Source: Elusimicrobiota bacterium | GTDB lineage: Bacteria > Elusimicrobiota > Elusimicrobia > UBA1565 > UBA9628 | Direction of reading: 5' to 3' | Length of the DNA stretch: 63,079 nt | NCBI GenBank assembly: GCA_030696455.1 | Contig: JAUYSH010000028.1 | Span: forward strand, 1 to 63,079 | Shown: piece after piece, positions 11,891-31,725 of the stretch | Position numbering within the stretch: the stretch's first letter is position 1 | How the letters are laid out: every line of letters starts with the position of its first letter | The notes under the pieces: generated by a model | What the model saw: only the letters and a program-made list of their open reading frames with translations | Told to the model about the DNA's origin: nothing | Databases searched by the model: none | Translations under genes and position numbers: made by a program

Positions 11891-11933
11891 CGAGCTAAGC
11901 TCTGGAGTATCCCGCCATAGACATGGTAGGATA

Positions 11934-13518: not shown

Positions 13519-13529
13519 CGGAGAACGAT

Positions 13530-14401: not shown

Positions 14402-14469
14402 AATATAAAAGGGATTACACCGAGGTCTTTATAGAGCTGCCGTTCCTGCCCGACCGCGATTACTTCACC

Positions 14470-14802: not shown

Positions 14803-14815
14803 ATCCACGAAACTG

Positions 14816-14845
14816 TTGCGCCGGGGGGGCGCAAAGGATTAAAAT
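14816..14845 (+). promoter_or_regulatory. Hairpin overlapping the tRNA-Pro promoter
   Basis: A 7-bp stem TTGCGCC/GGCGCAA (14816-14834) with a five-G loop could end the merR transcript, although no T-run follows. The same bases supply TTGCGC as -35, 18 nt before TAAAAT (14840-14845), which would start tRNA transcription near 14852. Confidence 0.4.
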
Positions 14846-14874
14846 ACCCCCGACGAGAGTTTCGCGCCCGCGAT

Positions 14875-14946
14875 CGGGGACTGGCTCAATGGTAGAGCGC
14901 TCCCTTGGGGTGGGAGAGGCTACAGGTTCGATTCCTGTGTCCCCGA
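14875..14946 (+). tRNA. tRNA-Pro (anticodon GGG)
   Basis: Cloverleaf with acceptor CGGGGAC/GTCCCCG, D-arm GGCTCAATGGTAGAGC, anticodon loop TTGGGGT (anticodon GGG with G37, usual for proline) on the stem CTCCC/GGGAG, and T-arm ACAGG/CCTGT around TTCGATT. Discriminator A; CCA is not encoded. Confidence 0.92.
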
Positions 14947-14971
14947 TCGCGCGCGTGAGATTGACGGGCCT

Positions 14972-15047
14972 CGGGGTATAGCTCAATTGGCAGAGCGCTT
15001 CGTTCGGGACGAAGAGGTTCCCAGTTCAAGCCTGGGTACCCCGACCA
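14972..15047 (+). tRNA. tRNA-Pro (anticodon CGG)
   Basis: Acceptor CGGGGTA/TACCCCG, anticodon loop TTCGGGA (CGG, G37) on CTTCG/CGAAG, T-arm CCCAG/CTGGG around TTCAAGC. The ACCA end is encoded, unlike the first tRNA 25 nt upstream; the two are probably one transcript. Confidence 0.92.
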
Positions 15048-15052
15048 CTTTT

Positions 15053-15095
15053 AAAAGGACGCGTCCGGGCCGCGAGGCCCCGATGTGTCCTTTTT
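15053..15095 (+). terminator. Intrinsic terminator after the tRNA-Pro pair
   Basis: AAAAGGAC (15053-15060) pairs with GTCCTTTT (15087-15094), with an inner GGGCC-GCGA-GGCCC hairpin (15067-15080) and a T-run at the end. Confidence 0.75.
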
Positions 15096-15134
15096 ATTCT
15101 TGCCCCTTGCACGCCCCCTTGACAAATATTTAGA

Positions 15135-15419
15135 ATGTCAACCTTAGGCCCCTTGACGCGTCGACATTTAATCGTCGCCGGTCGCGTCCAAGGGGTCGGT
15201 TTCCGTTGGTTCACGAAGGAAACGGCCGACGATCTCGGCCTGAAGGGCTGGGTGCGCAACCGGGAAGACGGGACGGTCGAGGCGGAAGCCGAGGGAACCG
15301 AGACGGCGCTGGACGAGTTCGTCGAGCGTCTCAGAACGGGCAATCCCGCGGCGAGAGTGAGCGGGATCGCGACGAAGCCCGCCGCGATGAAGAACGAAAC
15401 TGCCTTCAGGATCATCTAG
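15135..15419 (+). CDS. Acylphosphatase
   Basis: 94 residues. Hydrolyses acyl phosphates. The signature GRVQGVGFRWFTKETADDLGL is spread over residues 17-37, with the catalytic Arg in GFR, and GWVRNREDGTVE carries the catalytic Asn. Length is standard. ATG 15135 lies inside a TAGAAT hexamer (15131-15136); if that is the promoter, a TTG at 15153 could be the real start (LTRRHLIVAGRVQG), which would still keep the whole domain. Confidence 0.88.
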   Translation: MSTLGPLTRRHLIVAGRVQGVGFRWFTKETADDLGLKGWVRNREDGTVEAEAEGTETALDEFVERLRTGNPAARVSGIATKPAAMKNETAFRII

Positions 15420-15426
15420 GAGAGAC

Positions 15427-16455
15427 ATGGAACCCTCAACGGATACAACGAGCCAGTACTTCAAAGGCATTCAGAAGCTGGCGCTCGTCACCCGCGAAGA
15501 GATGCATGAGCTCTGGAAGAAGGCCAAGAAGGGCGACCGCGTCTCCAAGCAGCGGATCATGGAGGCCAACCTGCGCCTGGTCGTGCCCATCGCCAAGAAA
15601 TACCATCGCCAGGGCATCGACTTCATGGACCTCGTCGAGGAGGGCAACCTCGGCCTGATGCACTCCATCGACAAGTTCGAGCCCTCCAAGGGCTACCGCT
15701 TCTCGACCTATTCCTCTTATTGGATCGAGCAGTCCATCCGCCGCGCCGTCGAAGAGACGAGCAAGACGATCCGCATCCCTCCGCACGCCTGGGAAGCCCT
15801 GCGCAAGTGGCTGAAGATGTGGGAGAAGATGCACGTCAAGCTCGGCCGGGATCCGTCGCTCGCCGAGATGGCGCGCGCGATGCACTGGACGGCGCGCCAG
15901 GTGCGCGGGGTGCTCGACGCGGCCGAGGCCGCCAAGGGCATGGGCTCCTTCGACGCCCCGATCGACTCGGGCGACGATAACATCACGGTCGAGGACATGA
16001 TCGCCGAGACCACGGCTCAGTCCCCGGAGAACCTCATCGGCGTGCTGAAGCTGCACGACGAGCTGCACCAGGCCCTGCGCGAGATCGGCGACCGCGAGCG
16101 CATGATTCTTGAATTTAGGCATGGGCTCACGGGGCAGACGCCGATGACGCTCGAGGAGGTGGGCAAGCGCCTCAAGCTGTCGCGCGAGCGCATCCGCCAG
16201 ATCGAGGAACGGGCCTTGCTGCGCCTGCGCCGCGTGGCCAACCGCATGGGCCTCATCGAGGTCGACGAGGGAGGGCGCCGCGGACCGACGAACCTCCAGC
16301 CCGGCTTCTCCGCGCCCAAGCTCAAGACCGACATCCTGGGCCAGACCATCCCGGCCGGCCGCAAGACCGCCCCGACCGCCGCGCAGAACCTGCGCCGCGC
16401 GCCGCGCAAGCTCGTGTTCCTGCCCGCCGCCAAGGCCGGCAAGAAGAAGAAATGA
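15427..16455 (+). CDS. RNA polymerase sigma factor, sigma-70 family (RpoD/RpoS type)
   Basis: 342 residues. Region 1.2 is represented by QYFKGIQKLALVTREEMHEL; region 2 by NLRLVVPIAKKYHRQGIDFMDLVEEGNLGL and the DNA-melting part YRFSTYSSYWIEQSIRRA; region 3 by ETSKTIRIPPHAWEAL onward; region 4 by MTLEEVGKRLKLSRERIRQIEERAL. Region 1.1 is missing, as in group 2 factors. A basic tail of about 65 residues (after 280) ends in GKKKK. An AGGAGAG site precedes the ATG. It could be the housekeeping factor of this lineage or a secondary one; the TTGACA/TATAAT-like promoters of the window fit either. It overlaps apt by 4 nt. Confidence 0.88.
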   Translation: MEPSTDTTSQYFKGIQKLALVTREEMHELWKKAKKGDRVSKQRIMEANLRLVVPIAKKYHRQGIDFMDLVEEGNLGLMHSIDKFEPSKGYRFSTYSSYWIEQSIRRAVEETSKTIRIPPHAWEALRKWLKMWEKMHVKLGRDPSLAEMARAMHWTARQVRGVLDAAEAAKGMGSFDAPIDSGDDNITVEDMIAETTAQSPENLIGVLKLHDELHQALREIGDRERMILEFRHGLTGQTPMTLEEVGKRLKLSRERIRQIEERALLRLRRVANRMGLIEVDEGGRRGPTNLQPGFSAPKLKTDILGQTIPAGRKTAPTAAQNLRRAPRKLVFLPAAKAGKKKK

Positions 16456-16973
16456 ACATGAGCGAGCTCAAGGCCCTGATCAAGGACGTCCCCGATTTCC
16501 CGAAGAAGGGGATCATCTTCAAGGACATCACGCCCCTGCTCGCCGACCCCAAGGGCTTCGACGCCGTCATCGACGGACTGATCGCCCCGTTCAAGCAGGC
16601 GGGCATCACGGTCGTGGCGGGTGTCGAGTCGCGCGGGTTCCTGCTCGCGCCGGCGATGGCGGCGCGCCTCGGCGCGGGCATCGTCCCGCTGCGCAAGAAG
16701 GGCAAGCTGCCGCGCAAGGTCCACTCCGCCTCCTACGACCTCGAGTACGGCACGGACTCCATCGAGGCCCACGCCGACGCCTTCGCCAAGGGCTCCAAGG
16801 TCCTTCTCGTCGACGACGTCCTGGCCACGGGCGGCACCGCCGCCGCCGCCATCTCCCTCATCGAGGCCCTGGGGGGGAACCTGGTGGGCAGCGCCTTCCT
16901 GATCGAGCTCTCCTTCCTTAATGGACGCAAGAAGCTGGACGGCCGGAATATTCATTCGCTCCTGACGTACTGA
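16452..16973 (+). CDS. apt: Adenine phosphoribosyltransferase
   Basis: 173 residues. Salvages adenine to AMP using PRPP. VPDFPKKGIIFKDITPLL at the N-terminus, the VAGVESRGFLLAPAMA core and the PRPP loop VLLVDDVLATGGTAAA at about 116-131 are diagnostic. Length is normal. Translation is coupled to the sigma factor (ATGA), with a second in-frame ATG two codons in. Confidence 0.94.
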   Translation: MNMSELKALIKDVPDFPKKGIIFKDITPLLADPKGFDAVIDGLIAPFKQAGITVVAGVESRGFLLAPAMAARLGAGIVPLRKKGKLPRKVHSASYDLEYGTDSIEAHADAFAKGSKVLLVDDVLATGGTAAAAISLIEALGGNLVGSAFLIELSFLNGRKKLDGRNIHSLLTY

Positions 16974-17008
16974 TAAGCTATTATTGCCTGCCCGTCACAG
17001 GGTCTGAC

Positions 17009-17080
17009 GCCTCGATAGCTCAATGGATAGAGCTACCCTCTCCTAAGGGGTAGATGTGGGTTCGATTCCCTCTCGGGGCA
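17009..17080 (+). tRNA. tRNA-Arg (anticodon CCU)
   Basis: Acceptor GCCTCGA/TCGGGGC (one T-G pair), D-arm GCTCAATGGATAGAGC, anticodon loop CTCCTAA (CCT) on ACCCT/GGGGT, T-arm GTGGG/CCCTC around TTCGATT with one T-T mismatch at the second pair. Discriminator A; CCA not encoded. It reads AGG. Confidence 0.88.
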
Positions 17081-17117
17081 AACGCTCTCTATTCCTCCAT
17101 TAAGGATCAATCACCTC

Positions 17118-17786
17118 ATGTCTACCGAAAAGCACTGGGCCACCCAGCAGGACGCCAAGAAGGACGAGGTCCGTGATTTCTTCGGCCACGTCCTCGACCA
17201 GGCGGTCAAGCACCGGCGCGAGGTCGGCATGGCCGCCGCCGCCGTGGCGGTCCTCGGCGTGCTGATCGGGTTCGGCATCTACTCGAGGGGGGTCAACGAG
17301 AACGAGGCCTGGGACAAGCTGTCGATGGCCGAGGCCTATTCCTATTATGGAAGGCCCGCGGAGGCCGCCACGGCCCTCTCCGAGCTCACCGAGCAGAACG
17401 CGAGCCGCGCGGCCGCCAGCCTCGCCGGCATGATGCAGGGGGAGCTCAAGCAGGCCCAGGGCGAGCACGCCGCCGCCCTGCAGTCCTTCTCCCGCGCCGC
17501 CGAAACGGCTCCCGAGCCGCTGAAGCCCTTCGCCGCGGCCGAGCGGGTCACCGCGCTCGAATTCGCCGGCAAGCACGCCGAGTGCGTCGCCGCCGCGCAG
17601 GCTTTCACGGACGCCAACGCCGATCATTTTCTCGCGCCGCAGGTTCAGGAGACCATGGCCCGCTGCCAAACCGCCGCGGGACAGCCCGACGCGGCGCGCG
17701 CCACCTGGCAGAAGATTTCCCTCCAGTACCCCGACACGCCCTGGGCGGTTCGCGCGAACGCGCGGCTACAATCGCCCTCTAAATAA
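17118..17786 (+). CDS. YfgM-like TPR membrane protein
   Basis: 222 residues. A cytoplasmic N-terminus of about 35 residues, one transmembrane helix (VGMAAAAVAVLGVLIGFGIY, about 37-56), then a helical repeat domain with TPR-like units (EAYSYYGRPAEAATALSEL; AAALQSFSRAAETAPEPLKP; AARATWQKISLQYPDTPWA). This matches PF09976-type proteins, which in E. coli (YfgM) sit beside the BamB lipoprotein gene and touch the Sec translocon. No bam gene is adjacent here, so only the architecture is supported. It stands between tRNA-Arg and the porin gene. Confidence 0.65.
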   Translation: MSTEKHWATQQDAKKDEVRDFFGHVLDQAVKHRREVGMAAAAVAVLGVLIGFGIYSRGVNENEAWDKLSMAEAYSYYGRPAEAATALSELTEQNASRAAASLAGMMQGELKQAQGEHAAALQSFSRAAETAPEPLKPFAAAERVTALEFAGKHAECVAAAQAFTDANADHFLAPQVQETMARCQTAAGQPDAARATWQKISLQYPDTPWAVRANARLQSPSK

Positions 17787-17852
17787 CACTCGATAACACT
17801 GAGTGGACCGCCCAGCCATGTGACGGTTGCGTGCACTCGCCATAACAAACAG

Positions 17853-17882
17853 TTGACAACGCCAAAACACCTTTGCTAGATT
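17853..17882 (+). promoter_or_regulatory. Strong promoter of the porin gene
   Basis: TTGACA (17853-17858), then 17 nt to CTAGAT (17876-17881) or 18 nt to TAGATT (17877-17882). The start would be near 17888, giving a leader of about 135 nt. Confidence 0.6.
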
Positions 17883-17942
17883 CGCTCCGCCGCATTCGTT
17901 CGTGAGGAGCCGCAAAGAACTGGCGCTCCTGTCGTACGTAGG

Positions 17943-17989
17943 CCCCGTCAAAAGCGGGGTATGACGTGAGTATCCCCGCTGAAACGGGG
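17943..17989 (+). promoter_or_regulatory. Mutually exclusive hairpins in the porin leader
   Basis: Two CCCCG/CGGGG stems (17943-17947 with 17955-17959; 17974-17978 with 17985-17989) compete with a longer 7-bp stem AGCGGGG/CCCCGCT (17953-17959 with 17974-17980). This is the form of a two-state RNA switch. No ligand or known riboswitch class is recognised. Confidence 0.4.
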
Positions 17990-18022
17990 CTTACGATACA
18001 AACAAGAGAGGATAAAAGAGCA

Positions 18023-19480
18023 ATGAAAAAGCTCCTGGGAACGACGTTAGCCCTGGCCATGTTCATTCCGGCCGGTGCGAATGCTGAGCTGTTGAAGAAC
18101 CTCAAGGTGTCCGGCAACCTGGACATCCAGACGACCTCCGCCCGCAACGTGACTGACTTCGTGACCCGCCCCACCGGCGCGAACAGCAGCCCCGCCGGCA
18201 CCAACAACAACGACCGCATCGGCCACGCGACGACTCGCGTGATCCTCAAGCTGGACTGGGACCTGCTGGACGACGTGCACGCCCGCGTGACCCTCGTCAA
18301 GGGCGCGGAAGGCGTGGGCGCCGGCGCGGCCCGGACCTACGGCACGGGCGCGCAGTCCGTCAACGGGATCCAGGACACGACGATCGTCCAGGAAGCCAAC
18401 GTCAAGATCGACAAGGTGTTCGGCCATGTCGACCTGACGGCCGGCCGCCAGTTCTACGGTGAAGAGGGCGACCTCGTCATCTACTACGGCCCCCGCAGCG
18501 CCTACGGCCTGCGCGTGGACGCGATCGACATGTTCCGCGCCGACTGGAACGGCGAGCACATGACGGTCACCGGCATCGCCGGCAAGACCGCCGACACCGC
18601 CGTCAACACGGTCGGCAGCGGCAACTCGGCGACGGACCTGCGCGGCGTCATCGTCTCCTGCAAGATGCACGAGATGGTAAAGCCCTCGGTGTACGTCTAC
18701 AACCGCGTGACGCACGGCGTCGCGGGCATCGGTCAGACCCTCGGCAGCGTGGGCACGTCCGCCGATGGTAAGAACTCCAACCTGTGGGTCGCCGGCGCGA
18801 AAGCGAAGGTTACCTCGGGCGGGTTCGACGGCAGCCTCGAAGTCGCGAAGAACTTCGGTGAGGACCGCGCGACCTTCGCGAACGCCGTTGGCGGCGCGCG
18901 CAACGTCAACTTCAAGGGCTACGCCGTTCAGGCCAAGGCCAGCTACAAGATCGATCTTTCCGACGTCGGGATGATCAAGCCTTGGGGCGAGTACGGCATG
19001 GGCACGGGCGACAGCAACTTCGACTACGCGGGCAACAACACGTTCCAGTCCATCAACACGGACTACCGCCCGGGTGGGATCTACGGCCGCTTCGACACTG
19101 GCGCGGCGCTGCAGCTCGCGAACAACGCGAACGGCAACGGCGCGAACTCGTTCGCGTCCAACGGCCTGTCCAACCGCATCATCTGGGGCTTCGGCGTCAA
19201 GGCCACCCCGTCCTCGGTGGAGAAGCTGACGGTCGGCGCGGCGTTCTACCGCTACGCCTACCACCGCGTGGCGCCGTTCAACGCCGCGGGGACCAAGTCT
19301 TCGCGCAACATCGGCTCGGAAGTCAATGTGATGGCGAAGTGGACGCATTCCGAGAACGTGTCCCTCAAGGCGACGGCGGGCTCGTTCAAGCCCGGCGCGG
19401 CCATGGCGGACTTCCGCGCCGCGAACGCGGCGCTCAACCCGGCCGTCATGCTGGCCGGCGACGTCGCGATCAAGTTCTAA
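18023..19480 (+). CDS. Outer-membrane beta-barrel porin
   Basis: 485 residues. Start ATG 18023 is chosen for its signal peptide (MKKLLGTTLALAMFIPAGANA, residues 1-21) and the GAGAGG site upstream. The mature protein is Gly/Asn/Thr-rich with alternating hydrophobic strands throughout (for example HATTRVILKLDWDLL, VDLTAGRQFYGEEGDLVIYYG, GEYGMGTGDSNFDYAG), and it ends in a beta-signal (LAGDVAIKF) with a terminal Phe, as needed for BAM assembly. No close family can be named. A strong TTGACA promoter, a long leader and a strong terminator suggest an abundant surface protein. Its codon use is more C-ending and regular than neighbours, in keeping with high expression. Confidence 0.82.
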   Translation: MKKLLGTTLALAMFIPAGANAELLKNLKVSGNLDIQTTSARNVTDFVTRPTGANSSPAGTNNNDRIGHATTRVILKLDWDLLDDVHARVTLVKGAEGVGAGAARTYGTGAQSVNGIQDTTIVQEANVKIDKVFGHVDLTAGRQFYGEEGDLVIYYGPRSAYGLRVDAIDMFRADWNGEHMTVTGIAGKTADTAVNTVGSGNSATDLRGVIVSCKMHEMVKPSVYVYNRVTHGVAGIGQTLGSVGTSADGKNSNLWVAGAKAKVTSGGFDGSLEVAKNFGEDRATFANAVGGARNVNFKGYAVQAKASYKIDLSDVGMIKPWGEYGMGTGDSNFDYAGNNTFQSINTDYRPGGIYGRFDTGAALQLANNANGNGANSFASNGLSNRIIWGFGVKATPSSVEKLTVGAAFYRYAYHRVAPFNAAGTKSSRNIGSEVNVMAKWTHSENVSLKATAGSFKPGAAMADFRAANAALNPAVMLAGDVAIKF

Positions 19481-19504
19481 AGATCATCTAGAACGAACGT
19501 AAAA

Positions 19505-19559
19505 GGCCCCCTCGGCGCGATTCGCTAAAAGCGAATCGAACCGGGGGGGTTCTTTTTTT
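19505..19559 (+). terminator. Strong intrinsic terminator of the porin gene
   Basis: An outer 9-bp stem CCCCCTCGG/CCGGGGGGG (19507-19515 with 19541-19549) and an inner 7-bp stem GATTCGC/GCGAATC (19519-19525 with 19531-19537) around TAAAA, followed by T7 (19553-19559). Confidence 0.88.
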
Positions 19560-19591
19560 GCGCTCGCGCTCATACGTCGGTAGGATTTTGC

Positions 19592-19597
19592 TAGGAT
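19592..19597 (+). promoter_or_regulatory. -10 hexamer of the second beta-barrel gene
   Basis: TAGGAT ends 8 nt before ATG 19606; another TAGGAT lies at 19581-19586. Predicts a leaderless mRNA and fixes the start at 19606. Confidence 0.5.
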
Positions 19598-19605
19598 TTC
19601 GGTCG

Positions 19606-20979
19606 ATGCGACGCTCACTCGCTCTCGCGATCCTGTTCGCCTCCGCCTCGTCCGCCGCGCACGCGGCGAGCCTGGACGTGACCGCCTCCTACAAGATGAA
19701 GGCGGCGTCCTATTCCAACCTCCACTACGACACGAACGACCGGAACAACCACTCCTTCATCACCAACGACGCGCGCCTGGGCATCGCCGTGCGCCGCATC
19801 CCGCTCGAGACGCGGGGGGGAGAGGACACCACGATGGATCTGGGCATCGTCCTGCGCTCCCTCGGCGTGTCCGGCTCGACGTCCTCGGTCGCTTCACCGT
19901 TCGACCGAGTCGCGTCCTACTACCCGAACGCGGACCTCACCCCCTTCATCGAGAACGCCTACTTGAAGGTTCACCGCCTCTGGGGCTACCCGTGGGAAGC
20001 GACCTTCGGCCGCCAGAGCTACCGCCTCGGCGGCGGCCTGCTGCTCGATGACGACGGCGCCGGCCTGACGGGCGCCTCGGCCCGCGGCGAGCTCCCCTGG
20101 TGGAATATGAAGGTCGAAGGCTTCATCTTCAACGACCGCAATCCCCTGCACGCCTCGGCGCCGAACAGCCTCGACCTCGCCGGCGTATCCGTGGACCTTC
20201 CCGGCGAGGGCGTCTGGCAGCTCAACCAACTCATCGAGCGCGACCGCGCCCAGCAGACCGTCTACGGCTGCAGCTACACCGGCAACCCCCAGGCCAACGG
20301 CTGCCTCGTTTCAAAGGCCGTGCGAAGCTTCACCGGCTTGAGATACCAGATCAGCTACGGCCCGATGGTGTTCGACGGCGAGGCCGCCATGCAGAAAGGC
20401 TACGCGACCCCGACCGGCCCGAACCCCGCAGGCAACCACATCACCTACAACGGCAACGCCCAGGTCGTGCGCATGAAGTGGAAGCAGTCGCTGTGGAAGA
20501 CCGGCCAGGGCATCGCCCGCATGTCGGTCGCGCGCGGCACCGGGGACGATCCCGGCACCGCGACCACCGACGAGGCGTTCTTCCCCAGCCGCGGCCACCG
20601 CCACAACGGCCTCGAGCGCACCGGCTTCGGCGAACTGTTCGCGGCGACCGCGTACGACGCGTTCGGGGGGAACTTCTCCACGACCACCAAGAGCGGGCTG
20701 CGCAACGGCGCCTCCGGCCTCGTGGTGGTCGGCGCGGGCTACACGCCGCCCGCCTACAAGGGCGTCACGCTCGACATCGATTTTTTCCTTTACCAGGCCG
20801 AGCGCATCTCCTCCGGCTCCCGGACCTTGGGCACGGAGTGGGACCTGCGCCTGCGCTACCCGATCCGAGACCAGCTGCAGCTCGCCGCCACCATGGCGTA
20901 CTTCCGCGCCGGCAAGTTCACGGATCCGGGCCGCTCGGTCGCCCGCAAGTACGCCTTCGAAGCCTCCGGCCGCTTCTAA
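19606..20979 (+). CDS. Alginate-export-type outer-membrane beta-barrel protein
   Basis: 457 residues. The start at ATG 19606, not the TTG at 19558, gives a normal signal peptide (MRRSLALAILFASASSAAHA) and lies right behind a -10 hexamer. The mature protein resembles alginate-export family barrels: FIENAYLKVHRLWGYPWEAT, FGRQSYRLGGGLLLDDDGAG (a typical family segment) and a strand-rich C-terminus ending with Phe (FEASGRF). Substrate unknown; such barrels pass anionic polysaccharides or small solutes. It is separated from the first porin by a strong terminator, so it is an independent transcription unit. Confidence 0.72.
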   Translation: MRRSLALAILFASASSAAHAASLDVTASYKMKAASYSNLHYDTNDRNNHSFITNDARLGIAVRRIPLETRGGEDTTMDLGIVLRSLGVSGSTSSVASPFDRVASYYPNADLTPFIENAYLKVHRLWGYPWEATFGRQSYRLGGGLLLDDDGAGLTGASARGELPWWNMKVEGFIFNDRNPLHASAPNSLDLAGVSVDLPGEGVWQLNQLIERDRAQQTVYGCSYTGNPQANGCLVSKAVRSFTGLRYQISYGPMVFDGEAAMQKGYATPTGPNPAGNHITYNGNAQVVRMKWKQSLWKTGQGIARMSVARGTGDDPGTATTDEAFFPSRGHRHNGLERTGFGELFAATAYDAFGGNFSTTTKSGLRNGASGLVVVGAGYTPPAYKGVTLDIDFFLYQAERISSGSRTLGTEWDLRLRYPIRDQLQLAATMAYFRAGKFTDPGRSVARKYAFEASGRF

Positions 20980-21055
20980 GCCCGCCGTGCCCCCGGCGCC
21001 CCCGGTGGCCCCCCCGGTGTCAGGCCTTCAAATTCGTTGAATTCGGCGACCCCGC

Positions 21056-21075
21056 GACTGTTTCCGGAAACAGTC
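21056..21075. repeat. Perfect 20-bp palindrome
   Basis: GACTGTTTCCGGAAACAGTC reads the same on both strands, with no loop. This suits a dimeric DNA-binding protein; there is no T-run, so it is not a terminator. Confidence 0.8.
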
Positions 21076-21370
21076 CGACGCCCGGTCACCAGCCCGATTC
21101 CCGCATAGCGGGATGGGGCTTCACCCCGCCTATAGGGCCCCATCAGGGGTCGAATCCGGGGGCGATAGACGCCTGCCGCTCCCGCGCCCCGCCTAGGGCC
21201 GTTTCCGGCCGTTTTAAGGGCTCCCCGGGGGAGGCCGACAGAGCGAATCCCGGGCATATGGAAGTCGAAGGGCGGGTACGGCGGCATTAAATCATCATCC
21301 CGCTCGCCCCGGTCCGGCGGGGGGAGGAGGGGCGCGGATCCGCCGATTCCTCGTCGAGGATTCCCCGGAG

Positions 21371-21543: not shown

Positions 21544-22050
21544 ATGAACCCCCATCGCGTCAGACTCAAGCTGCCCAACGGAGCCGAGCTCGAGGTCGAA
21601 GGCGACGCGGAGTTCGTGCGCCAGGAGCGCGAGGAGTTCGTGCTACGCCAGACGCCGGCGGCCGGCGCCGAGGCGGCCGGGCCGAGGCGCGAGCCGCGGG
21701 TCGAATGGAACGCGGTGGTGGAGGCCAAGAGCGGGGGGCTGACGCTGCGGGGCAAGATCCCCGGGGGCGACAAGGCGGGCAAGGACGCGTGCCTGGTGCT
21801 CCTGATGGCCTCGGAGAGGCTCCTGAGCCTGCCAAAGCCCACGGCGACCTTGGTGGCCAAGTGGCTGCGGGCGTCGGGGTATCCGATAGGGCGGATGGAT
21901 AGGACGATGCAGGACGCGATCGCGCAGGGCGAGCTGCTGTCTTCGGGGTCGCGCCGGTCGCGGAGATATGAGCTGACCGCAACGGGCAAGATAAAAGCCC
22001 TGCTGCTGGCGGAGCAGCTGACGGCGACGGTGCTGGGCAAGCGGCCGTAA
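21544..22050 (+). CDS. Putative winged-helix DNA-binding protein
   Basis: 168 residues. The N-terminus (VRLKLPNGAELEVEGDAEFV) is a small beta element seen at the start of several bacterial orphan proteins. The C-terminal ~80 residues (ASERLLSLPKPTATLVAKWL, YPIGRMDRTMQDAIAQGELL, SRRYELTATGKIKALLLAEQ) look like a winged helix with a basic wing. I recognise no family. It sits between DnaA-box-like sites and a dif-like site plus A-tract array, so a role at that chromosomal locus is possible but only inferred from position. Leaderless start predicted from GATAAT at 21532. Confidence 0.55.
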   Translation: MNPHRVRLKLPNGAELEVEGDAEFVRQEREEFVLRQTPAAGAEAAGPRREPRVEWNAVVEAKSGGLTLRGKIPGGDKAGKDACLVLLMASERLLSLPKPTATLVAKWLRASGYPIGRMDRTMQDAIAQGELLSSGSRRSRRYELTATGKIKALLLAEQLTATVLGKRP

Positions 22051-22256: not shown

Positions 22257-22284
22257 ACTATTGATAATATTTATTATGTTGCTT
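22257..22284 (+). other. Candidate dif (XerC/XerD recombination) site
   Basis: 28 bp in dif layout: a left 11-mer ACTATTGATAA, a central hexamer TATTTA and a right 11-mer TTATGTTGCTT. The inner part (ATAAT ... ATTATGTT) is close to the general bacterial dif consensus; the outer ends differ. It is AT-rich inside GC-rich DNA and lies where long leftward and rightward gene runs converge. No xer gene is present in the window. Confidence 0.45.
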
Positions 22285-22429
22285 ACAGATAGGGGAGCGC
22301 CGCCCGGGCATAACCGATAGTCCCGCGCAAGTTCGAGCGATTTACCTCGTACGGATAACGTGAATTCGCGTCAAACGCCACGGTTTGTGAGATATTCTAA
22401 ATTGGCAGTCGACGCCCCCCTGGAAGTTG

Positions 22430-23045
22430 GCAAAAATCCGGGTGGAGCTCGGCTGCGCCGGCCGGAAATCAGCCCAAAAGTCGGCAAGAATCCGGAGATC
22501 CTGGGGCAGCTTGGGAGAGCCGAAAAAACCATGAAAGGGCCAGGGGTAGGATACCCCCGGATCGGCCGGGCAGCCGAAAAAACCATCGGAGCCGGCGGGA
22601 AACTTGGCAACTTTTTGGGGACCGGGCAGCCGGTAATCGGGGCGTCAAAAAAACCACCTCAGGCCCTAGGGTAAACGACGCGAAAAACCAGCCAAGATCC
22701 GGGCGGTTTCCGGAAAAACAGGGATGGCCGAAAACACCATGAAAGACCTGGGGCCGCGGCAGCCAAAAAACCTGGCAAGTTTCCGGGAATCCCGGTGGAC
22801 CCGAAAAAACCAGGTAAGAGACCGGCGGCTGGAGGCCGAAAAACCAGGCAAGAAATCACCCGACTCCGAAGGATCCGGTGATGCGAAAAAGACTATGGAA
22901 AGAAAAAAGGGCCGGGAGGCGTCGAACGAAAAAAACCATCGAAGACCCCGGGATCGGGAGGCGGTCCGCGGAATCCGAAAAAACACCGAACGCCGGAGCT
23001 CAAAAACGGGAGCTCCGGGCCTGAGATGGTTTTTTCGGTTTTAAG
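22430..23045. repeat. A-tract array (about 16 copies of CCGAAAAAACCA-like units)
   Basis: Runs of 4-7 A flanked by CCG and CCA recur at 22432, 22475, 22523, 22577, 22647, 22684, 22714, 22731, 22766, 22804, 22840, 22886, 22903, 22930, 22979 and 23002, all on one strand, followed by an inverted copy (TGGTTTTTTCGG, 23027-23038). The fuller unit is close to CCGAAAAAACCATGAAAG. Spacers of 17-70 nt are GC-rich and include small palindromes such as CCGGGAATCCCGG and the GGAGCTC/GAGCTCC stem at 22995-23016. Confidence 0.75.
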
Positions 23046-23301
23046 CGGAGGGAGGGGCGGGAGGGAGGGAGGGCAGGAAAAGGCCGACGCCGATCGCGGC
23101 ATAGCCGCCGATCAGGAGGAATGGGGAGACCAGAGCGGGAAGGTTGCGGCCGAGGGGATCGGCGAAGGAGAGGATGACGAAGCCGGCGATCACGAGAGCT
23201 CCCCCCATCCCTATCAACCGCTTTCCCACGGCCGAGAGCGGCTCATAGGAGAGGGGCGGCGCGGGACGATCCTTCTTCGCGGTGTTTTTGTTCCTGGCCA
23301 C
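23041..23301 (-). CDS. Small two-helix membrane protein
   Basis: 86 residues from a GTG. A basic N-terminus (ARNKNTAKKDR) precedes two hydrophobic segments (LIGMGGALVIAGFVILSFA at about 29-47 and ALVSPFLLIGGYAAIGVGLFL at about 56-76) and a Pro-rich end, so both ends should face the cytoplasm. It is the last gene of the long minus-strand operon, 1 nt after lysA. No family recognised. Its stop codon touches the end of the A-tract array. Confidence 0.65.
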   Translation of the reverse strand: MARNKNTAKKDRPAPPLSYEPLSAVGKRLIGMGGALVIAGFVILSFADPLGRNLPALVSPFLLIGGYAAIGVGLFLPSLPPAPPSA

Positions 23302-23302
23302 T

Positions 23303-24502
23303 CTAGAGCTCCCCCCTCGTGAGGTCCCGATACGTCTCTCTGCGCCGCGCCAGCCTGGACTTCCCCCCGTCCACGAGCACCTCGGCGGCGCGAGGGCGGG
23401 AGTTGTACTGGCTGCTCATGGCGAAGCCGTAGGCCCCGGCCTTGAGCACGGCGAGAAGGTCCCCCCTCTCGAGGGGCGGCAGGGGCCTCTGGCGAGCGAG
23501 GAAGTCTCCCGACTCGCAGACGGGCCCCACGACGTCCGCCATGGTCTTTTTTCCTTTGCGGGGTGCCACGACCATCACGGGGTGCCAGGCGTCGTACAGC
23601 GCGGGCCTGGGCAGGTCCGTCATGGCCGCGTCGACGATGACGAAGCGCCGCTTCGAGGTGCGCTTACGGTAGAGCACCGCCGTCAGCAGCAGCCCGGCGT
23701 CGGCGACGAGATAGCGTCCCGGCTCGACGAGCAGCTCGAGCTCCGGCTGCCCCGCGAAGGCCGCTTCCAGGGTCTTCACGAGGGCGCGCGGGTCCAGAGG
23801 CCTCTCGTCCTTGTAGGTGATGCCCAGGCCCCCGCCCACGTCCGCGAAATCGAGCGGGATGCCTTGCGCCTTCAGGGAGGCCGCCAGACGCGCCACGGCG
23901 GCCGCCGCGCGCGCGTAGGGCGTCAGGGAGGTGATCTGCGAGCCGATGTGGCACTGGAGGCCCGTGACGCGCAGGCGACGGTCCTGGGCGGCGCGGCGGT
24001 ACAGCGCCAGCGCCTCCCCTGTCTCCACCCCGAACTTGTTCTCCGCCCTCCCGGTGGTGATGTGAGGGTGGGTCTTCGCGTTGATGTCGGGGTTCAGGCG
24101 TATGGAGACGGGAGCCCTCTTTCCCAGGCGACCGGCGACGCGCGCGAGCGCGTCGAGCTCCTCGGACGACTCCACGTTGAAGGCCTTCACGCCGGCGCGG
24201 AGTCCGGCGGTCATCTCCGCCTCGGTCTTTCCGACGCCGGAGAACACGACGCGCGACGGCCGGAATCCCGCGCGCAAGGCGCGCCCCAGCTCCCCGCCGG
24301 AAACGATGTCGGCGCCGGCGCCCTCGCGCGCGAGCACGGAGGCGACGGCCCGGCTCGAGTTGGCCTTCAGCGCGTAGCAGACGAGCGCGGGGCGGGTGAA
24401 GGCTCCCTGGAGGGCGCGGTAGCGGTCGCGCACGACGGCGGCGTCGTAGACGTACAGGGGGGTGCCGTAACGGCGCGCGAGCGCCGCGAGGAGCCCCTTC
24501 AC
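23303..24502 (-). CDS. lysA: Diaminopimelate decarboxylase
   Basis: 399 residues. Makes lysine from meso-diaminopimelate with PLP. The PLP lysine is K46 (CYALKANSS); HIGSQI (185-190), DVGGGLGI (221-228), EPGRYLVADAG (260-270) and the active-site CESGD (329-333) are all intact. The start is the GTG at 24502, which overlaps the upstream stop as GTGA; the open frame continues further back but only into the neighbour gene's repeats. Partner enzyme DapB is encoded at 48962. Confidence 0.93.
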   Translation of the reverse strand: MKGLLAALARRYGTPLYVYDAAVVRDRYRALQGAFTRPALVCYALKANSSRAVASVLAREGAGADIVSGGELGRALRAGFRPSRVVFSGVGKTEAEMTAGLRAGVKAFNVESSEELDALARVAGRLGKRAPVSIRLNPDINAKTHPHITTGRAENKFGVETGEALALYRRAAQDRRLRVTGLQCHIGSQITSLTPYARAAAAVARLAASLKAQGIPLDFADVGGGLGITYKDERPLDPRALVKTLEAAFAGQPELELLVEPGRYLVADAGLLLTAVLYRKRTSKRRFVIVDAAMTDLPRPALYDAWHPVMVVAPRKGKKTMADVVGPVCESGDFLARQRPLPPLERGDLLAVLKAGAYGFAMSSQYNSRPRAAEVLVDGGKSRLARRRETYRDLTRGEL

Positions 24503-25524
24503 TTCTTCTTCGCCTCGGCGGCAGCCGCGGCCTTCGCGGCTTTCTCGGCGGCCCGCCGCTCTTTTTCGGCGGCGGCGTCGGCGGCCTTCTTGGCGGCGGC
24601 GGCGCGGCGCGTCGCTTCCTTGAGGGAGGCCTTGGCCTTCGCGTCGCCGGGCGCGGCCTTGAGCGCCAGCTCCCACGCGGCACGCGCCTCCTCCCACTTT
24701 CCGAGCTTCTGCGCGGCCATGGCGAGGCCCGTGGGCGCGCGCTGGGCATCGAGGCCGGGGAGAGCGTCCGGGCCGACCGCGATGAAATGATCATAGGCTT
24801 CCTGATACCGGCCGGCCTCGAGCGCGATCTGCCCGAGGTAGAAGTCCGACCGCCGGGCGTAATCGCCGCCCACGCTCTTCAGCGAGGCGAAGGAGGCCGC
24901 CGCCCGATCGACCAGCTTACCCCCCCAGAGGCTGAGGCCGAGGTTCTCCTCGATCAGCGGATCGGAAGGATCCTGGAACTTCAGCCGCTCGTACTCGCCG
25001 ACGGCATCGCGGAACAGGCCCATGCGATAATAGAGCTTCGCGGTCAGCATCCGCACTTCCTTGTCCTCCGGGTAGTGGCGCAGGAAGCGCCTGTACTCGG
25101 TGAGCGCAAAAGGCAGAAGCCCTTCTTCCTGATACATGATCCCGAGGCAGTAGAAGATGCGCGGATCGAGCGCGCCGAGCTCGCGCGCCTCCTCGAGGTC
25201 GCCGATCGCCTCGACATAATGCTCCCGTCCCTTCTCGAACTTCAGCGTGCCGAGCTCGACGAGCGCCGCGATGTCCTGCGGGTTGGCCCTGAGGCGCTCC
25301 TGCGCCGCCGCGATCTGCGAGGCGACCTGGGGAGGCGGCGGGAAGTCCGCCCGGCGCTTGGGCAAAGGCTTCTCCCGGAGCATGAAGATCAGCGCCCCGA
25401 ACAGCAGGACGATGACGACCCCCGCCGCGACGGCGACGGCCCGGGGGCTGAGCCAGCCGCCGGCCAAGGCCCAGGGGGACTTGACCGGCTTCAGGCGGGC
25501 ATCGTCGCCGACGCGCAAGGTCAC
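24499..25524 (-). CDS. Membrane-anchored TPR protein
   Basis: 341 residues from a GTG with GGAAGG upstream, overlapping the preceding stop (GTGA). Short cytoplasmic part, one transmembrane helix (AVAVAAGVVIVLLFGALIFML, about 29-49), then at least five TPR-like repeats (for example PRIFYCLGIMYQEEGLLPFA and DAVGEYERLKFQDPSDPLIE). The last 45 residues are an Ala/Lys/Glu helix, strongly charged and repetitive. It should present its repeats in the periplasm as a scaffold. Partners unknown; operon context is translation and wall/lysine synthesis. Confidence 0.72.
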   Translation of the reverse strand: MTLRVGDDARLKPVKSPWALAGGWLSPRAVAVAAGVVIVLLFGALIFMLREKPLPKRRADFPPPPQVASQIAAAQERLRANPQDIAALVELGTLKFEKGREHYVEAIGDLEEARELGALDPRIFYCLGIMYQEEGLLPFALTEYRRFLRHYPEDKEVRMLTAKLYYRMGLFRDAVGEYERLKFQDPSDPLIEENLGLSLWGGKLVDRAAASFASLKSVGGDYARRSDFYLGQIALEAGRYQEAYDHFIAVGPDALPGLDAQRAPTGLAMAAQKLGKWEEARAAWELALKAAPGDAKAKASLKEATRRAAAAKKAADAAAEKERRAAEKAAKAAAAAEAKKK

Positions 25525-26729
25525 CCTTCCTCATCCTCCGGCGACAGTATCTGGCCGAGCGTCAGGGGCGGCGGCGCCTTCATGTACTGCGCGACGCGCT
25601 TGCGGTCCTTGATCTCGTTGAACCGCGCCAGAGAGACGCGGACCTCGAACGCCTGCGAGTCGATGCCCGTGACGATGCCCGTGATCTCGTCGCCGAGCTT
25701 GTAGATCACGTCGGCGTCGCACTCCGCGGCGGGCGCGAAGGCGACCGTCTTCGGGTCCACCTGGAAGCGCACGCCGTGGGCGCCGACCTCGGTGATCTTG
25801 CCGCTGACCGTGGACTTGGGAGCGAACTTCTTGCGCATCGCGTCCGACGGATTCGGCTGAAGCTGCTTGATGCCGAGGTAGACGGGATCGCCGGCCTTCT
25901 CGGGCTTGGAGAGGACCTTGACCTTGAGCTTCTGGCCGCGCTCGAAGGCGCCGGGCTTCGCGGCGCCCCAGGCCATGTCGACGGGACGGACGGTGCCCTC
26001 GAGCCCGCCGATATCGATAAGAAGACCATCGGCGGAGACCCGGACGATGCGGCCGATCCGGACCTCTCCGCCCCGGAGCTCCTCCATGATCTTGACCTTG
26101 CGCTTGCCCGCCTCGTCCTCGAGGACGGCCTTGCGGGAGAGCACGAGCTGGCGCTTGGACTGATTGACTTCGATGACGAGGCAGCGCACGCCGGTCCCGA
26201 TCATCTTCTCGGGCTGGCGCACGGGGCGCAGGTCCGCGAGCGAAGAAGGCAGGAAGGCCTGAACGCCCTGGACGTCGACGATGAAGCCGCCCTTGACCGA
26301 GGATTTCACGATGCCGCGCACCCGCTGCTTCTCCGCGTGCGCCTTGGTCGCCATCTCCCAGCCGAGCTCGGTCTTCGCCTTGAGGTGGGAAAGCACCACG
26401 TGCCCGGCCTTGTTGCGCCCGCCCTGCTTGATGACGGGAACGCGCTGACCCGCCTGAGGCGCCGGCGCCTTCGGGTCCGCGAGGTCCGACACGAACTCGA
26501 CGAGCGGCACGGTGCCCTCGTTCTTCTCGCCCACATCGACGAGCACCGCGTCCTTGGTCACGGTGATGACCTTGACCCAGGCGACCTTCTTGTCGGCGAG
26601 CTTGTCCACCGTCGCCGACTGCTGAGCGAGGAGCGACTCCATCGTCTCTCCGCCGGTTTCGGCGGCGTCGCCCTCTTCGGGCTCCGCGGCTTCCCAGGCC
26701 TTCTCGTTCAAGTTCGTGTTCTGATCCAT
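25521..26729 (-). CDS. S1-domain RNA-binding protein (ribosomal protein S1-like)
   Basis: 402 residues. An acidic N-terminus of about 45 residues is followed by four S1 (OB-fold) repeats, e.g. VKVITVTKDAVLVDVGEKNE, VRGIVKSSVKGGFIVDVQGV (the best conserved, with AFLPSS following), IGRIVRVSADGLLIDIGGLE and VSGKITEVGAHGVRFQVD. Four repeats are fewer than the six of E. coli S1 but normal for many phyla. It sits after cmk and plsC, the classic neighbourhood of rpsA. AGGAGAGG precedes the ATG. It would bind mRNA at the 30S subunit; leaderless mRNAs, common in this window, do not need S1. Confidence 0.82.
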   Translation of the reverse strand: MDQNTNLNEKAWEAAEPEEGDAAETGGETMESLLAQQSATVDKLADKKVAWVKVITVTKDAVLVDVGEKNEGTVPLVEFVSDLADPKAPAPQAGQRVPVIKQGGRNKAGHVVLSHLKAKTELGWEMATKAHAEKQRVRGIVKSSVKGGFIVDVQGVQAFLPSSLADLRPVRQPEKMIGTGVRCLVIEVNQSKRQLVLSRKAVLEDEAGKRKVKIMEELRGGEVRIGRIVRVSADGLLIDIGGLEGTVRPVDMAWGAAKPGAFERGQKLKVKVLSKPEKAGDPVYLGIKQLQPNPSDAMRKKFAPKSTVSGKITEVGAHGVRFQVDPKTVAFAPAAECDADVIYKLGDEITGIVTGIDSQAFEVRVSLARFNEIKDRKRVAQYMKAPPPLTLGQILSPEDEEG

Positions 26730-26754
26730 AATCGGTACCTCTCCTAGTTTATCG

Positions 26755-27351
26755 TCAAAGCGAGTAGATTCTTTCCATCAACGCCTTAGCGTACGCCAGA
26801 CCGGTCTCCCGGTCCTCCGACTTCGGCGGCGCCAGCGGCGCGCCGATACGCACTTCCAAAGGGAATCTTCGCGGGAACTCGTCGGTGCCCAGCACGCGCA
26901 CCGGCACGACGGGCGCCCCCGTGCGGGCCGACAGGAAGGAGACCCCGGCCTTCGGAACGCGCTTCTCCCCGGGCTTGACGCGCGTGCCCTCCGGATAGAT
27001 GAACAAGGCCCCTCCCTTCCCGAGGATCTCGAGCGCGGCGCGCATCGCCGACGTCGCGTCGCCCTGACGGTCGATCGGGAACGACCCGGTCTCCCGCAGC
27101 CACCAGCCGAGGAGCGGCTTCTCGAACAGCTCCTTCTTGCCGATGCCGAACGGCCGGCGGCGGGACGCCACCGCCACGGCGACCAGCGGCGGATCGACGA
27201 GGCTCACGTGATTCGGAGAGAGGATGACCGGACCTTCGAGCGGGATGTTCTCCAGGCCCGTCACCTTGACGCCCCAGATCGCGGACAGCATGCCGCGGAC
27301 GACACCCTCCGACCAGAGCCGCATCGGGAAGTTGGCGTCGGCGGAGTTCAT
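26755..27351 (-). CDS. plsC: 1-acyl-sn-glycerol-3-phosphate acyltransferase
   Basis: 198 residues. Second acylation step of phosphatidic acid synthesis, at the inner membrane. NHVSLVDPP (HX4D) and FIYPEGTR are the catalytic and phosphate-binding motifs, and GAPVVPVRVLGT closes the family signature. Length is typical for short PlsC. It overlaps the end of cmk (ATGA). With plsY and gpsA at 12 kb, the window encodes three consecutive phospholipid steps. Confidence 0.9.
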   Translation of the reverse strand: MNSADANFPMRLWSEGVVRGMLSAIWGVKVTGLENIPLEGPVILSPNHVSLVDPPLVAVAVASRRRPFGIGKKELFEKPLLGWWLRETGSFPIDRQGDATSAMRAALEILGKGGALFIYPEGTRVKPGEKRVPKAGVSFLSARTGAPVVPVRVLGTDEFPRRFPLEVRIGAPLAPPKSEDRETGLAYAKALMERIYSL

Positions 27352-28055
27352 TTTCCACGGCCGTTCGCTTTCGCGCCCTTGCGGATGCGGCGCAGGATCT
27401 TGTCGGCGACCTGGTGCATCGTCAGCTTCGTCGAATCGATGACGAGAGCGTCGGGCGCCTGCTTCAAGGGGTTGATCTCGCGCTTGAGGTCGTTGAGGTC
27501 GCGCTTGAGGATCGCGGCGAGGATCTTGTCGCGGTCGGCTTCCTGCCCCGCGGCCTTGAGCTGGCGGTAGCGCCGGTCCGCGCGTTCTTCGGGCGACGCG
27601 TCGAGATAAATCTTCACGTCGGCGTCGGGGAACACGTTGGTCGTGATGTCACGTCCTTCCATCACGATCGAGCCGCCCTCGCCGAGGTCGCGCTGGAGTT
27701 TGGATAAAAATCTCCGTACGCCGGGATTTCCGGCGACCAGAGACGAGTTGACGCTCACCCGTTCTTCCCGGATCTGCTGGGTGACTCCGGTGCCGTTGAT
27801 GAAGGTCTTCAAGGTCGTGCCGGCGTCGTCGACGGGCTTAAACTCCCAATCGAGGGATTTCGCCAGAAGGAGTACCGCTTCGTTGTCGTTCAGATCGAGG
27901 CCGTCTTCAAGCGCCTTCCAGGTGAGAGCCCGATACATCTCACCCGTATTGATGAACTTGTAGCCGAGGCTCTTCGCCACAAGCCCGCCCACCGTGGACT
28001 TGCCCACCCCGGCGGGGCCGTCCATCGCGATCACCAGGCCCTTGCGTCTCGTCAC
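27348..28055 (-). CDS. cmk: Cytidylate kinase
   Basis: 235 residues from a GTG. Phosphorylates CMP and dCMP. P-loop GPAGVGKS at 13-20, FINTGEMYRALT, GRDITTNVFPDADVKIYLDAS and the LID-region RRYRQLKAAGQEAD are characteristic; VIDSTKLT precedes the C-terminus. The tail is basic (RRIRKGAKANGRGK). It overlaps hisC upstream and plsC downstream, both by 4 nt. Confidence 0.93.
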   Translation of the reverse strand: MTRRKGLVIAMDGPAGVGKSTVGGLVAKSLGYKFINTGEMYRALTWKALEDGLDLNDNEAVLLLAKSLDWEFKPVDDAGTTLKTFINGTGVTQQIREERVSVNSSLVAGNPGVRRFLSKLQRDLGEGGSIVMEGRDITTNVFPDADVKIYLDASPEERADRRYRQLKAAGQEADRDKILAAILKRDLNDLKREINPLKQAPDALVIDSTKLTMHQVADKILRRIRKGAKANGRGK

Positions 28056-29155
28056 GCGGGCACCTTGGCGAGAACGGTTTTGAGAGCGGCAAAAAGGGCC
28101 TTATTCTGCAGCGGCGTCCCGATCGAGATGCGGACGTGGTGCGGCAGGCCGTACTCATCGAGCGGGCGGATGATGACGCCCAGGCGGAGCAGCGCCTTGA
28201 ACAGCTCGCGCCCGGGAAGCGGCGAGCGGGCGAAAACGAAATTGACGGCCGATTCGCCGACGCCGAAGCCGAGCTCGCCCAGCATGCGCGCGACCACGAC
28301 CCGCTGCGCGTCATTGGCGGAAACCGCTCGCGTGACGAAGGCCTCGTCCTTGAGCGCCTCAAGGCAGGCCCGCTGAGCCGGGAGGTTCACGTTGAACGGC
28401 ATGCGGATGCGGTCGAGCCAGCCGATGATCTCGGGATCCGCGACGCCGTAGCCGACCCGGAGGCCGGCAAGACCGTAGGCCTTCGAGAAGGTGCGCATGA
28501 CGACGAGGTTGTCGTGCGCGCGGACCAGCCCGGGAAGGCTGTCCGGGTAGCCGGGGATGCAGCGCGCGTACTGGAAATAGGCCTCATCGAGGACGACGAG
28601 CGCGTTCTTGGGCGCCGCCGCGAGCAGGCCGGAGAGCTCCTCGAGAGTGTTGTAGGTCCCCGTCGGATTGTTCGGGTTGGCGACAAAAACCAATTTAGTC
28701 CGGGGGCTCGTGGCCTTGCCCATCAGCGCGAGATCGTGGGTCCAGTCGGTCATCGGCACCTCGATGACGCGGGCGCCCATCATCGAAGCCTGCTGCTTGA
28801 AGCGGATGAACGCGTGCTGGGAGACGACCACCTCATCCTCCGGATCGAGGAAGGCCTCGCACAGGAGGCGGATGATCTCGTCGGAGCCGTTGCCGACGAT
28901 CACCGACTCGGGCTCGACCTGGTGGAAGCGGGCGAGGCCTTCGCGCAGCTCGGGGCTCGTGCCCTCGGGATACAGGGCGAGCGCCTTCTCCGCCTTGCGG
29001 TAGGCGGCCATCGCGCGCGGCGACGCTCCGATGGGGTTCTCGTTGGATGCGAGCTTGACCACCGACTTCAGTCCCAGCTCGCGCTGGACGGAGGCGATGG
29101 ACTTTCCGGGCTGATACGGGAATACGTCGCGCAGGGCGCGTCGGGGTGCGATCAT
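28052..29155 (-). CDS. hisC: Histidinol-phosphate aminotransferase
   Basis: 367 residues starting at ATG 29155, which overlaps the pgeF stop. PLP-dependent transaminase of fold type I. KLASNENPIGASPRA, the VVLDEAYFQYA segment (Asp and Tyr at the cofactor) and TFSKAYGLAGLRVGYG with the Schiff-base lysine are present, and RISIGT near the end holds the carboxylate-binding Arg. Other histidine genes are absent, so a broader aromatic or histidinol-phosphate specificity cannot be excluded. Confidence 0.88.
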   Translation of the reverse strand: MIAPRRALRDVFPYQPGKSIASVQRELGLKSVVKLASNENPIGASPRAMAAYRKAEKALALYPEGTSPELREGLARFHQVEPESVIVGNGSDEIIRLLCEAFLDPEDEVVVSQHAFIRFKQQASMMGARVIEVPMTDWTHDLALMGKATSPRTKLVFVANPNNPTGTYNTLEELSGLLAAAPKNALVVLDEAYFQYARCIPGYPDSLPGLVRAHDNLVVMRTFSKAYGLAGLRVGYGVADPEIIGWLDRIRMPFNVNLPAQRACLEALKDEAFVTRAVSANDAQRVVVARMLGELGFGVGESAVNFVFARSPLPGRELFKALLRLGVIIRPLDEYGLPHHVRISIGTPLQNKALFAALKTVLAKVPA

Positions 29156-29898
29156 GCGGGCCTCCGGTCGAGCGACAAGAAGGCGAGCATCCGGGCCCCG
29201 TCTTTCTGACGGCGGAACGAGTGGTACGCGTCTTCGTTGGATAAGGTGCACGGCGCCGCGGGGCCGATCATGCGGGCGGGCACGCCCGCGGCCTCGAGCT
29301 GGCGGCGGGCGTCGGCGTCGAGATCTAGAAATATTTCGTTGCCAGTCCGCCGGAGAGAGGTCGCCGGGAACGAGTTCTCCACGTCTTCTCCGACATTGTA
29401 GACGTTGACGCTGATGTGAGGGCCGAACGCGGCCTGCAGCCGCGACGCCTTCGCTCCGCGCTCGACGAGAGCCGCCACCGCCTTCGCCGGCATCCCCGCG
29501 GCCATCCCCCGCCATCCGGCGTGGAACACGCCGCCGTACTTGCCGTCGTCGGTCCACAGATAAAGAGGCATGCAGTCGGCGACGTAGACGGCGACGCAGA
29601 GACCTTCGTCCCCGGGGCCCATGGTCCATCCATCGCCTTCGAGACCGTTCGCGGAATGGGCCGCGCGATGGATGGTCGTCCCGTGCACTTGTTTCAACAG
29701 CAACGGATCGGGCAGCTCGAGAACAGCGGATGCGGCGACCCGCTGGGACGCCTCTTTCATGGGGCCTTTCCGGCGAGTGGTGAATCCGTGCTTCAGCCCT
29801 AAAGCCGAAAGACGCGGCTCGAACAGGAAACCATCCCGTTCGATCCAGGCGCCGGCGGCGAGCGCCGAGTTAGACAGGGGCCTTCTCCTGATTCGCAA
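29152..29898 (-). CDS. pgeF: Peptidoglycan editing factor PgeF / YfiH-type purine nucleoside phosphorylase
   Basis: 248 residues by the longest frame, starting at a TTG inside the upstream gene (29-nt overlap). Family features: LLKQVHGTTIH, YVADCMPLYL (ADCxP metal site) and VFHAGWRG. Members act on purine nucleosides and, in E. coli, remove wrongly placed L-Ser from peptidoglycan precursors. The gene often lies near ftsZ, as here. The true start could lie about seven codons downstream, at a CTG, since AGGAG lies inside the present N-terminus. Confidence 0.85.
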   Translation of the reverse strand: MRIRRRPLSNSALAAGAWIERDGFLFEPRLSALGLKHGFTTRRKGPMKEASQRVAASAVLELPDPLLLKQVHGTTIHRAAHSANGLEGDGWTMGPGDEGLCVAVYVADCMPLYLWTDDGKYGGVFHAGWRGMAAGMPAKAVAALVERGAKASRLQAAFGPHISVNVYNVGEDVENSFPATSLRRTGNEIFLDLDADARRQLEAAGVPARMIGPAAPCTLSNEDAYHSFRRQKDGARMLAFLSLDRRPA

Positions 29899-30589: not shown

Positions 30590-30603
30590 GGTGAAAAACC
30601 TCT

Positions 30604-31683: not shown

Positions 31684-31690
31684 TACCTCT

Positions 31691-31725
31691 GTTTCCTCAC
31701 TTTCACCGCAGTTTCCTCACTTTCA
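31691..31725. repeat. 20-bp-period direct repeat over the ftsZ stop codon
   Basis: The 15-mer GTTTCCTCACTTTCA occurs at 31691-31705 and 31711-31725. One copy encodes the last FtsZ residues and the other covers the stop codon and the ftsZ-pilT gap. Confidence 0.8.

Follow-up and report, generated by a model that had tools for sequence, protein, structure and literature searches.

What marks the replication terminus of an Elusimicrobia chromosome that is available only in pieces, and is the recombination site found there the bare 28-bp sequence, controlled through FtsK, as which chromosomal dif is usually presented? The question arises at contig JAUYSH010000028.1 of the Elusimicrobiota bacterium assembly GCA_030696455.1, analysed here over its full length of 63,079 bases (the window; the genome comprises 4.01 Mb in 147 contigs). 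An original prediction, made from the letters, placed a dif-like Xer recombination site at positions 22257-22284 of the window, at a point of converging transcription, and proposed that the window may contain the chromosome terminus. We identify the 28-mer as the dif site of this Elusimicrobia chromosome, where joined chromosome copies would be separated. Its right-hand flank, on the XerD side, carries a conserved module consisting of a 23-bp element at a nearly fixed distance and, beyond it, an array of directional boxes in helical phase. We consider it probable that dif lies here at the replication terminus with an accessory module on its XerD side, on which a nucleoprotein complex would form in register with XerCD-dif. 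The dif and terminus parts of the earlier reading stand; the conserved right-hand module had no place in it.

That Elusimicrobia possess dif was already known, because Kono et al. (2011), according to the accessible part of their text, predicted it in the sole Elusimicrobia genome then at hand (PMC3025954). The module we did not find described in the literature searched, by title or start of abstract, a search outside which most subscription papers and preprints fell.

The dif site and its recombinases

The site has the 11-6-11 layout of chromosomal dif, with GATAA and TTATG in the inner arms, and the two 11-mers and 6-bp centre are present as predicted. We assign the arm names by likeness to known dif.

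22257..22284, + strand: dif, with XerC arm ACTATTGATAA, centre TATTTA and XerD arm TTATGTTGCTT

The 28-mer occurs as a single exact copy in the 4.01-Mb genome, where the reversed-pattern control gave no match, and viral contigs contain no exact copy. A better dif match elsewhere would have pointed away from this site, but the classical pattern ATAANNNNNNTTATGTNAA has no match in the genome at up to one mismatch, and exactly one genomic match is given by a profile that spans dif and the flank to its right. Within the window, ATAANNNNNNTTATG with up to one mismatch has four matches against 0.49 expected, the only exact one being at 22257-22284; what decides against chance is the conservation of the site across relatives. 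The pattern ATAANNNNNNTTATGTTNCTT, again with at most one mismatch, is present in 43 of the 58 genomes searched, and 39 of these were kept as carrying a dif-like locus (G047, G052, G055 and G057 were excluded, and second matches in G000, G025, G029, G032 and G045 were disregarded). GATAA and TTATGT of the arms are invariant in all 39.

The genome also encodes the enzymes. Among nine integrase-family matches, one protein, whose gene follows recA, passes the curated XerD cut-off (337.4 against 329.6); another, whose gene follows topA, has XerC as its best match, yet at 310.6 remains below the equivalog cut-off of 335.15, and we call it XerC-type (recA and topA are names presumed from the sequences). 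The identification rests on the single copy, its conservation and the encoded recombinases.

Gene orientation and polar motifs at the terminus

Transcription does converge on the site: sampled genes lie on the + strand up to 22050 and on the - strand from 23303, and Pfam domains were found on those strands. A switch in GC skew, whose absence the original prediction named as refuting, did not appear in the window. Skew there is weak, with a local minimum rather than a maximum of cumulative skew near 22 kb, and there is no switch at dif in G010 either, a congener assembled in one contig of 3.80 Mb (dif at 2,508,438, dnaA at 3,598,626). As a terminus test GC skew was rejected, the cumulative maximum in G010 falling at about 1.9-1.96 Mb (1.6 Mb sampled), away from dif; weak skew without a switch in either place counts against it as an indicator. 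In G134, a member of another family assembled in one contig of 1.64 Mb (dif match starting at 917,172), skew changes from positive to negative between about 820 and 880 kb, with dif about 40-100 kb off.

A search for short polar words found two in G010, GGGGGAG and AGGGGGA, and similar G-rich words in G134. A two-breakpoint fit accommodates 118 of the 124 copies of GGGGGAG in G010, placing the terminus at 2.49-2.52 Mb and the origin at 3.60 Mb, with copies at 2,507,632 (+) and 2,509,365 (-) flanking dif; this polarity is partly circular, because the motif was picked from G010 arms that dif and dnaA defined. G134 was likewise part of the k-mer scan, and there the counts are 20/1 to the left of dif and 0/12 to the right, the flip falling between 917,147 and 919,448. 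The window and 56 other dif loci were tested after the motif had been chosen.

3410..21326, + strand: left-arm GGGGGAG polar motifs, 10 on + and 1 on -, the last before dif at 21320
23200..61499, - strand: right-arm GGGGGAG polar motifs, 9 on - and 1 on +, the first after dif at 23206

In the window the flip falls between 21,320 and 23,206 (left +10/-1, right +1/-9; Fisher p 3.5e-4), and the 56 other loci show the same change (left +64/-16, right +14/-68; Fisher p 3.5e-16). GGGGGAG is a polar motif of this lineage that resembles the FtsK orienting polar sequences (KOPS) and points at dif from both sides. Its flips at dif in the window, G010 and G134 support the proposal that the window holds the chromosome terminus.

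If origin and dif are correctly placed, the two arms of the G010 chromosome are very unequal, at 1.09 and 2.71 Mb, and the polar motifs agree. For Pseudomonas aeruginosa, the available portion of one report describes a chromosome of unequal arms in which segregation ends at dif (PMC6199493).

The flanking module and its neighbouring gene

The right flank of dif is organized as follows, where C denotes the 23-bp element, box B the directional repeat and palindrome A a second motif of the array.

22285..22387, + strand: spacer between dif and C, 103 bp, near-fixed in length and variable in sequence, with a few conserved A/T positions
22388..22410, + strand: element C, TGAGATATTCTAAATTGGCAGTC, 23 bp, matching the consensus TTAGATTTTCAAAATTAGCAGTC at 19 of 23 positions
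22523..22945, + strand: box B array (AAAAAACCATGAAAGG), profile starts at 22523, 22577, 22648, 22682 and 22731
22765, 22804, 22838, 22887 and 22930, + strand: further profile starts of the same array
22600..22614, no strand assigned: palindrome A (near AAAGTTGSCAACTTT), at offset 315 from the end of dif
23020..23035, - strand: box B copy in inverted orientation, at the array's far end
23303..24697, - strand: lysA-type diaminopimelate decarboxylase gene, right neighbour of the array
21544..22050, + strand: gene X, a winged-helix protein of 168 amino acids, directly left of dif

Element C is tied to dif by distance. In a scan of 200 bp to the right of dif, all 39 loci have their best match to TTAGATTTTCAAAATTAGCAGTC at offset 101-104, with 16-23 of 23 positions identical; elsewhere in each locus the best match reaches 13-16. 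These loci had been selected by dif alone; because the consensus was derived from the same 39, independent evidence comes from the constancy of the offset and from a control in a named collection. That collection comprised 80 loci from 92 stretches, two of which (L053 and L066) had flanks too short to score. Among the 78 testable loci, all carrying the dif pattern, C stands at 101-104 in 19 (14 titled Elusimicrobia and 5 titled only 'bacterium'), and the other 59 all score 15 or less. A sequence profile running from dif to C has one match per genome in 158 of 235 genomes of the class, and matches in 169 of 340 genomes of the phylum, a part of the weak matches having been checked for C. C was also the best match at 102-105 in 18 of 20 loci from distant families (exceptions G137 and G216) and at 103-106 in 7 of another 8 loci, of which six come from other classes (exception G258); these 28 loci lean towards C, because they were chosen with a profile that includes it. 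Conserved accessory DNA in a fixed geometry to the core, a feature of cer-type sites, is found beside this dif.

Two smaller observations concern this part of the flank. Counted from the first base of dif, conserved A/T positions in the spacer (22285-22387) fall near 62, 72 and 83, about a helical turn from one another. In several families the core of C reads TTAGCACTC, which resembles the half-site of the CIRCE heat-shock operator; the second CIRCE half was not seen next to it.

The array is non-coding, lies beyond C and is one-sided. With a refined profile, box B was found in 59 loci 276 times on the + strand and 44 times on the - strand to the right of dif, and 11 times to the left; counted on the + strand by the plain pattern AAAA[AG]ACCA, it occurs 139 times to the right and twice to the left. 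Over 1.6 Mb of G010, all five copies within two mismatches of AAAAAACCATGAAAGG adjoin dif. Palindrome A, scored by pattern, occurs 41 times to the right and never to the left, in 27 of the 59 loci, and is missing from 251,997 bases farther right. A profile seeded on it was discarded after drifting into the complement of box B. Minus-strand copies of box B occur in relatives too (for example G003 and G006); the one in the window closes the array.

The boxes keep helical phase. The distances between them gather at multiples of some 10.5 bp: across 124 spacings, from 33 genera represented by one genome each, R reaches 0.512 at 10.55 bp, a value equalled by none of 2000 jittered sets. The plain pattern gives R = 0.669 (n = 38, again 0 of 2000), and four non-overlapping genome groups give R values at 10.5 bp of 0.615, 0.596, 0.682 and 0.423. 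Distances from dif to the first box come out near 228, 238, 249 and 260 bp, so insertions and deletions appear to be tolerated in whole turns.

A predicted structure of the gene X product (predicted local distance difference test, pLDDT, 77.3) has an N-terminal beta-beta-alpha unit of low confidence and a C-terminal winged helix. Foldseek matched a winged helix of MarR/F93/AspA type (best E 2e-3), and the best structural match is AF1382 (Z 10.8, root mean square deviation (rmsd) 2.1, 86 aligned). The protein belongs to no family in Pfam, NCBIfam or PHROGs, and has no plasmid match and no credible sequence match in the PDB. Its profile matches 173 of 235 class genomes. Among the matches listed, which cover 146 of the 158 dif genomes and 128 of the 173 gene X genomes, gene X is in 127 of 128 genomes the immediate left neighbour of dif and shares its strand, at a median gap of 182 bp; the exception is genome G036. 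The product of gene X is a candidate binder of C.

Possible roles of the module

We propose that XerC and XerD would act on the 28-mer and that the polar, G-rich GGGGGAG would guide FtsK to it. A sequence-specific protein, the product of gene X or another, would bind C and the phased boxes, bending or wrapping the right flank along one helix face in register with XerCD-dif. The resulting polar, higher-order complex might license XerD/FtsK recombination or hold dif at the division site.

Several points weigh against this proposal. GC skew lends the terminus no support in the window or in G010. FtsK is encoded, but its gamma-like tail has diverged, scoring 18.7 bits where 30.6 is the cut-off, and the gamma family cut-off was reached in none of 10 genomes (FtsK loci L176-L185). 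The 28 additional loci were picked by a model containing C, and related genomes are not independent, though the phase persists in separate clades. Some families have a weak box B or none, the exact pattern being missing from G134, G071 and G075. Among the matches listed, 14 of the 146 dif genomes lack a gene X match, as do the loci of other classes, so gene X may not be the binder of C. Finally, what the sequences display directly is the motifs with their spacing, phase and one-sidedness, their conservation and the linkage to gene X; the action of XerCD and FtsK here, protein binding by the module, the protein concerned and the function of the module are inferred.

Much of the locus matches the dif/XerCD/FtsK system of Escherichia coli and Bacillus: a 28-bp site of 11-6-11 layout, present once per chromosome at the terminus, two Xer recombinases with FtsK, and polar motifs. 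The differences are the divergent FtsK gamma, and the fixed-distance element and phased array flanking dif; to our knowledge, known chromosomal dif sites need no conserved flank. Xer cores with accessory sequences are familiar from plasmids, such as psi of pSC101 and cer of ColE1, the accessory DNA of cer lying on the XerC side. The Elusimicrobia module shares with cer the adjoining accessory DNA, and differs in being chromosomal, about 700 bp long, on the XerD side and built of directional boxes. In the accessible part of one account, some 180 bp beside the cer core are bound by ArgR and PepA, which control the reaction, and no requirement of chromosomal dif for a conserved flank is met with there (PMC5357621).

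The main rival reading is that an ordinary dif stands beside an independent polar replication fork barrier, the winged-helix protein acting like RTP of Bacillus subtilis. RTP is a winged-helix protein whose gene lies next to its own site, and its Ter fork trap, like the present array, places polar sites in the terminus; here too the directional boxes are one-sided and a winged-helix gene adjoins. The available text of one paper further has the RTP dimer binding paired half-sites, and terminator genes autoregulated with the ter site in the promoter (PMC10331603). A barrier would need neither the fixed 101-104 bp nor a helical phase running from dif through the array, however, and with mostly one box polarity mainly one fork could be stopped. 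RTP is not among the best 50 structural matches of gene X, which excludes nothing. We regard a fork barrier as unlikely, although it is the alternative to be taken most seriously. Plasmid centromere arrays bound by the winged-helix protein AspA of pNOB8 also consist of repeated boxes, and the gene X domain resembles the AspA apo structure 4rs8 (Z 9.4, rmsd 3.2, 84 aligned); Z values of 9 to 11 are common to MarR, PadR and F93 proteins, so gene X is best called a generic winged helix.

The remaining alternatives fare worse. Box B could represent FtsK loading sites, a KOPS cluster beside dif: the boxes are directional and on the XerD side, and a divergent gamma makes an unusual motif possible. 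This we judge improbable, since loading followed by translocation needs no fixed spacing; box B as KOPS was dropped, a different G-rich motif, GGGGGAG, already being KOPS-like and polar genome-wide, which box B is not. Slightly less credible again is a transcriptional feature, either a non-coding RNA or tandem terminators serving the gene on the right. Box B read on its opposite strand ends in T6, lysA is read towards the array and one promoter-like match overlaps dif. Hairpins before the T-runs are nonetheless missing (149 sites, mean z -0.03), terminator-like sites number 3 against 2.8 by chance, Rfam gives no match and RNAalifold no consensus pair from dif to C, and it is these missing hairpins, matches and pairings that disfavour the reading. 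By a rough open reading frame (ORF) rule, which is wrong for the window (lysA on -), the right neighbour is on - in 25 of 36 loci and on + in 11. It is very improbable that the 28-mer belongs to a mobile element that uses Xer, as its attachment site or a remnant, instead of being the host dif. G036 does carry such an element in dif, but each of the 158 class genomes with a match has one match, the neighbours are conserved, motif polarity flips at the single-copy site in the one-contig G010 and G134, and in the window no such element was seen there.

A dif-anchored accessory complex remains the reading we prefer. A stronger version, that Elusimicrobiota possess a dedicated terminus complex, in which the phased array on the XerD side serves as a recombination switch or a centromere-like tether and, in most families, has its own winged-helix gene adjoining, we hold only tentatively and think somewhat doubtful. 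If true, it would be a third coupling of terminus and division, besides bare dif/FtsK and MatP-type organisers. The occurrence of the module throughout the class, and in further classes of this phylum, suggests that some bacteria have supplemented dimer resolution with a regulator or anchor bound to DNA. The spacing rules predict that half-turn insertions would disrupt the module and full-turn insertions spare it. Together, dif and the module could mark the terminus in fragmented genomes of this little-studied phylum.

In G036 (L334, G036:C41:194000-207000), a 9.4-kb phage-like element lies exactly between the dif halves, with gene X to its left and C and the array to its right. One of its ORFs is packaging-ATPase-like (phrog_2666, E 6.5e-9), and by its sequence the insertion appears to be placed as an Xer-integrated element would be.
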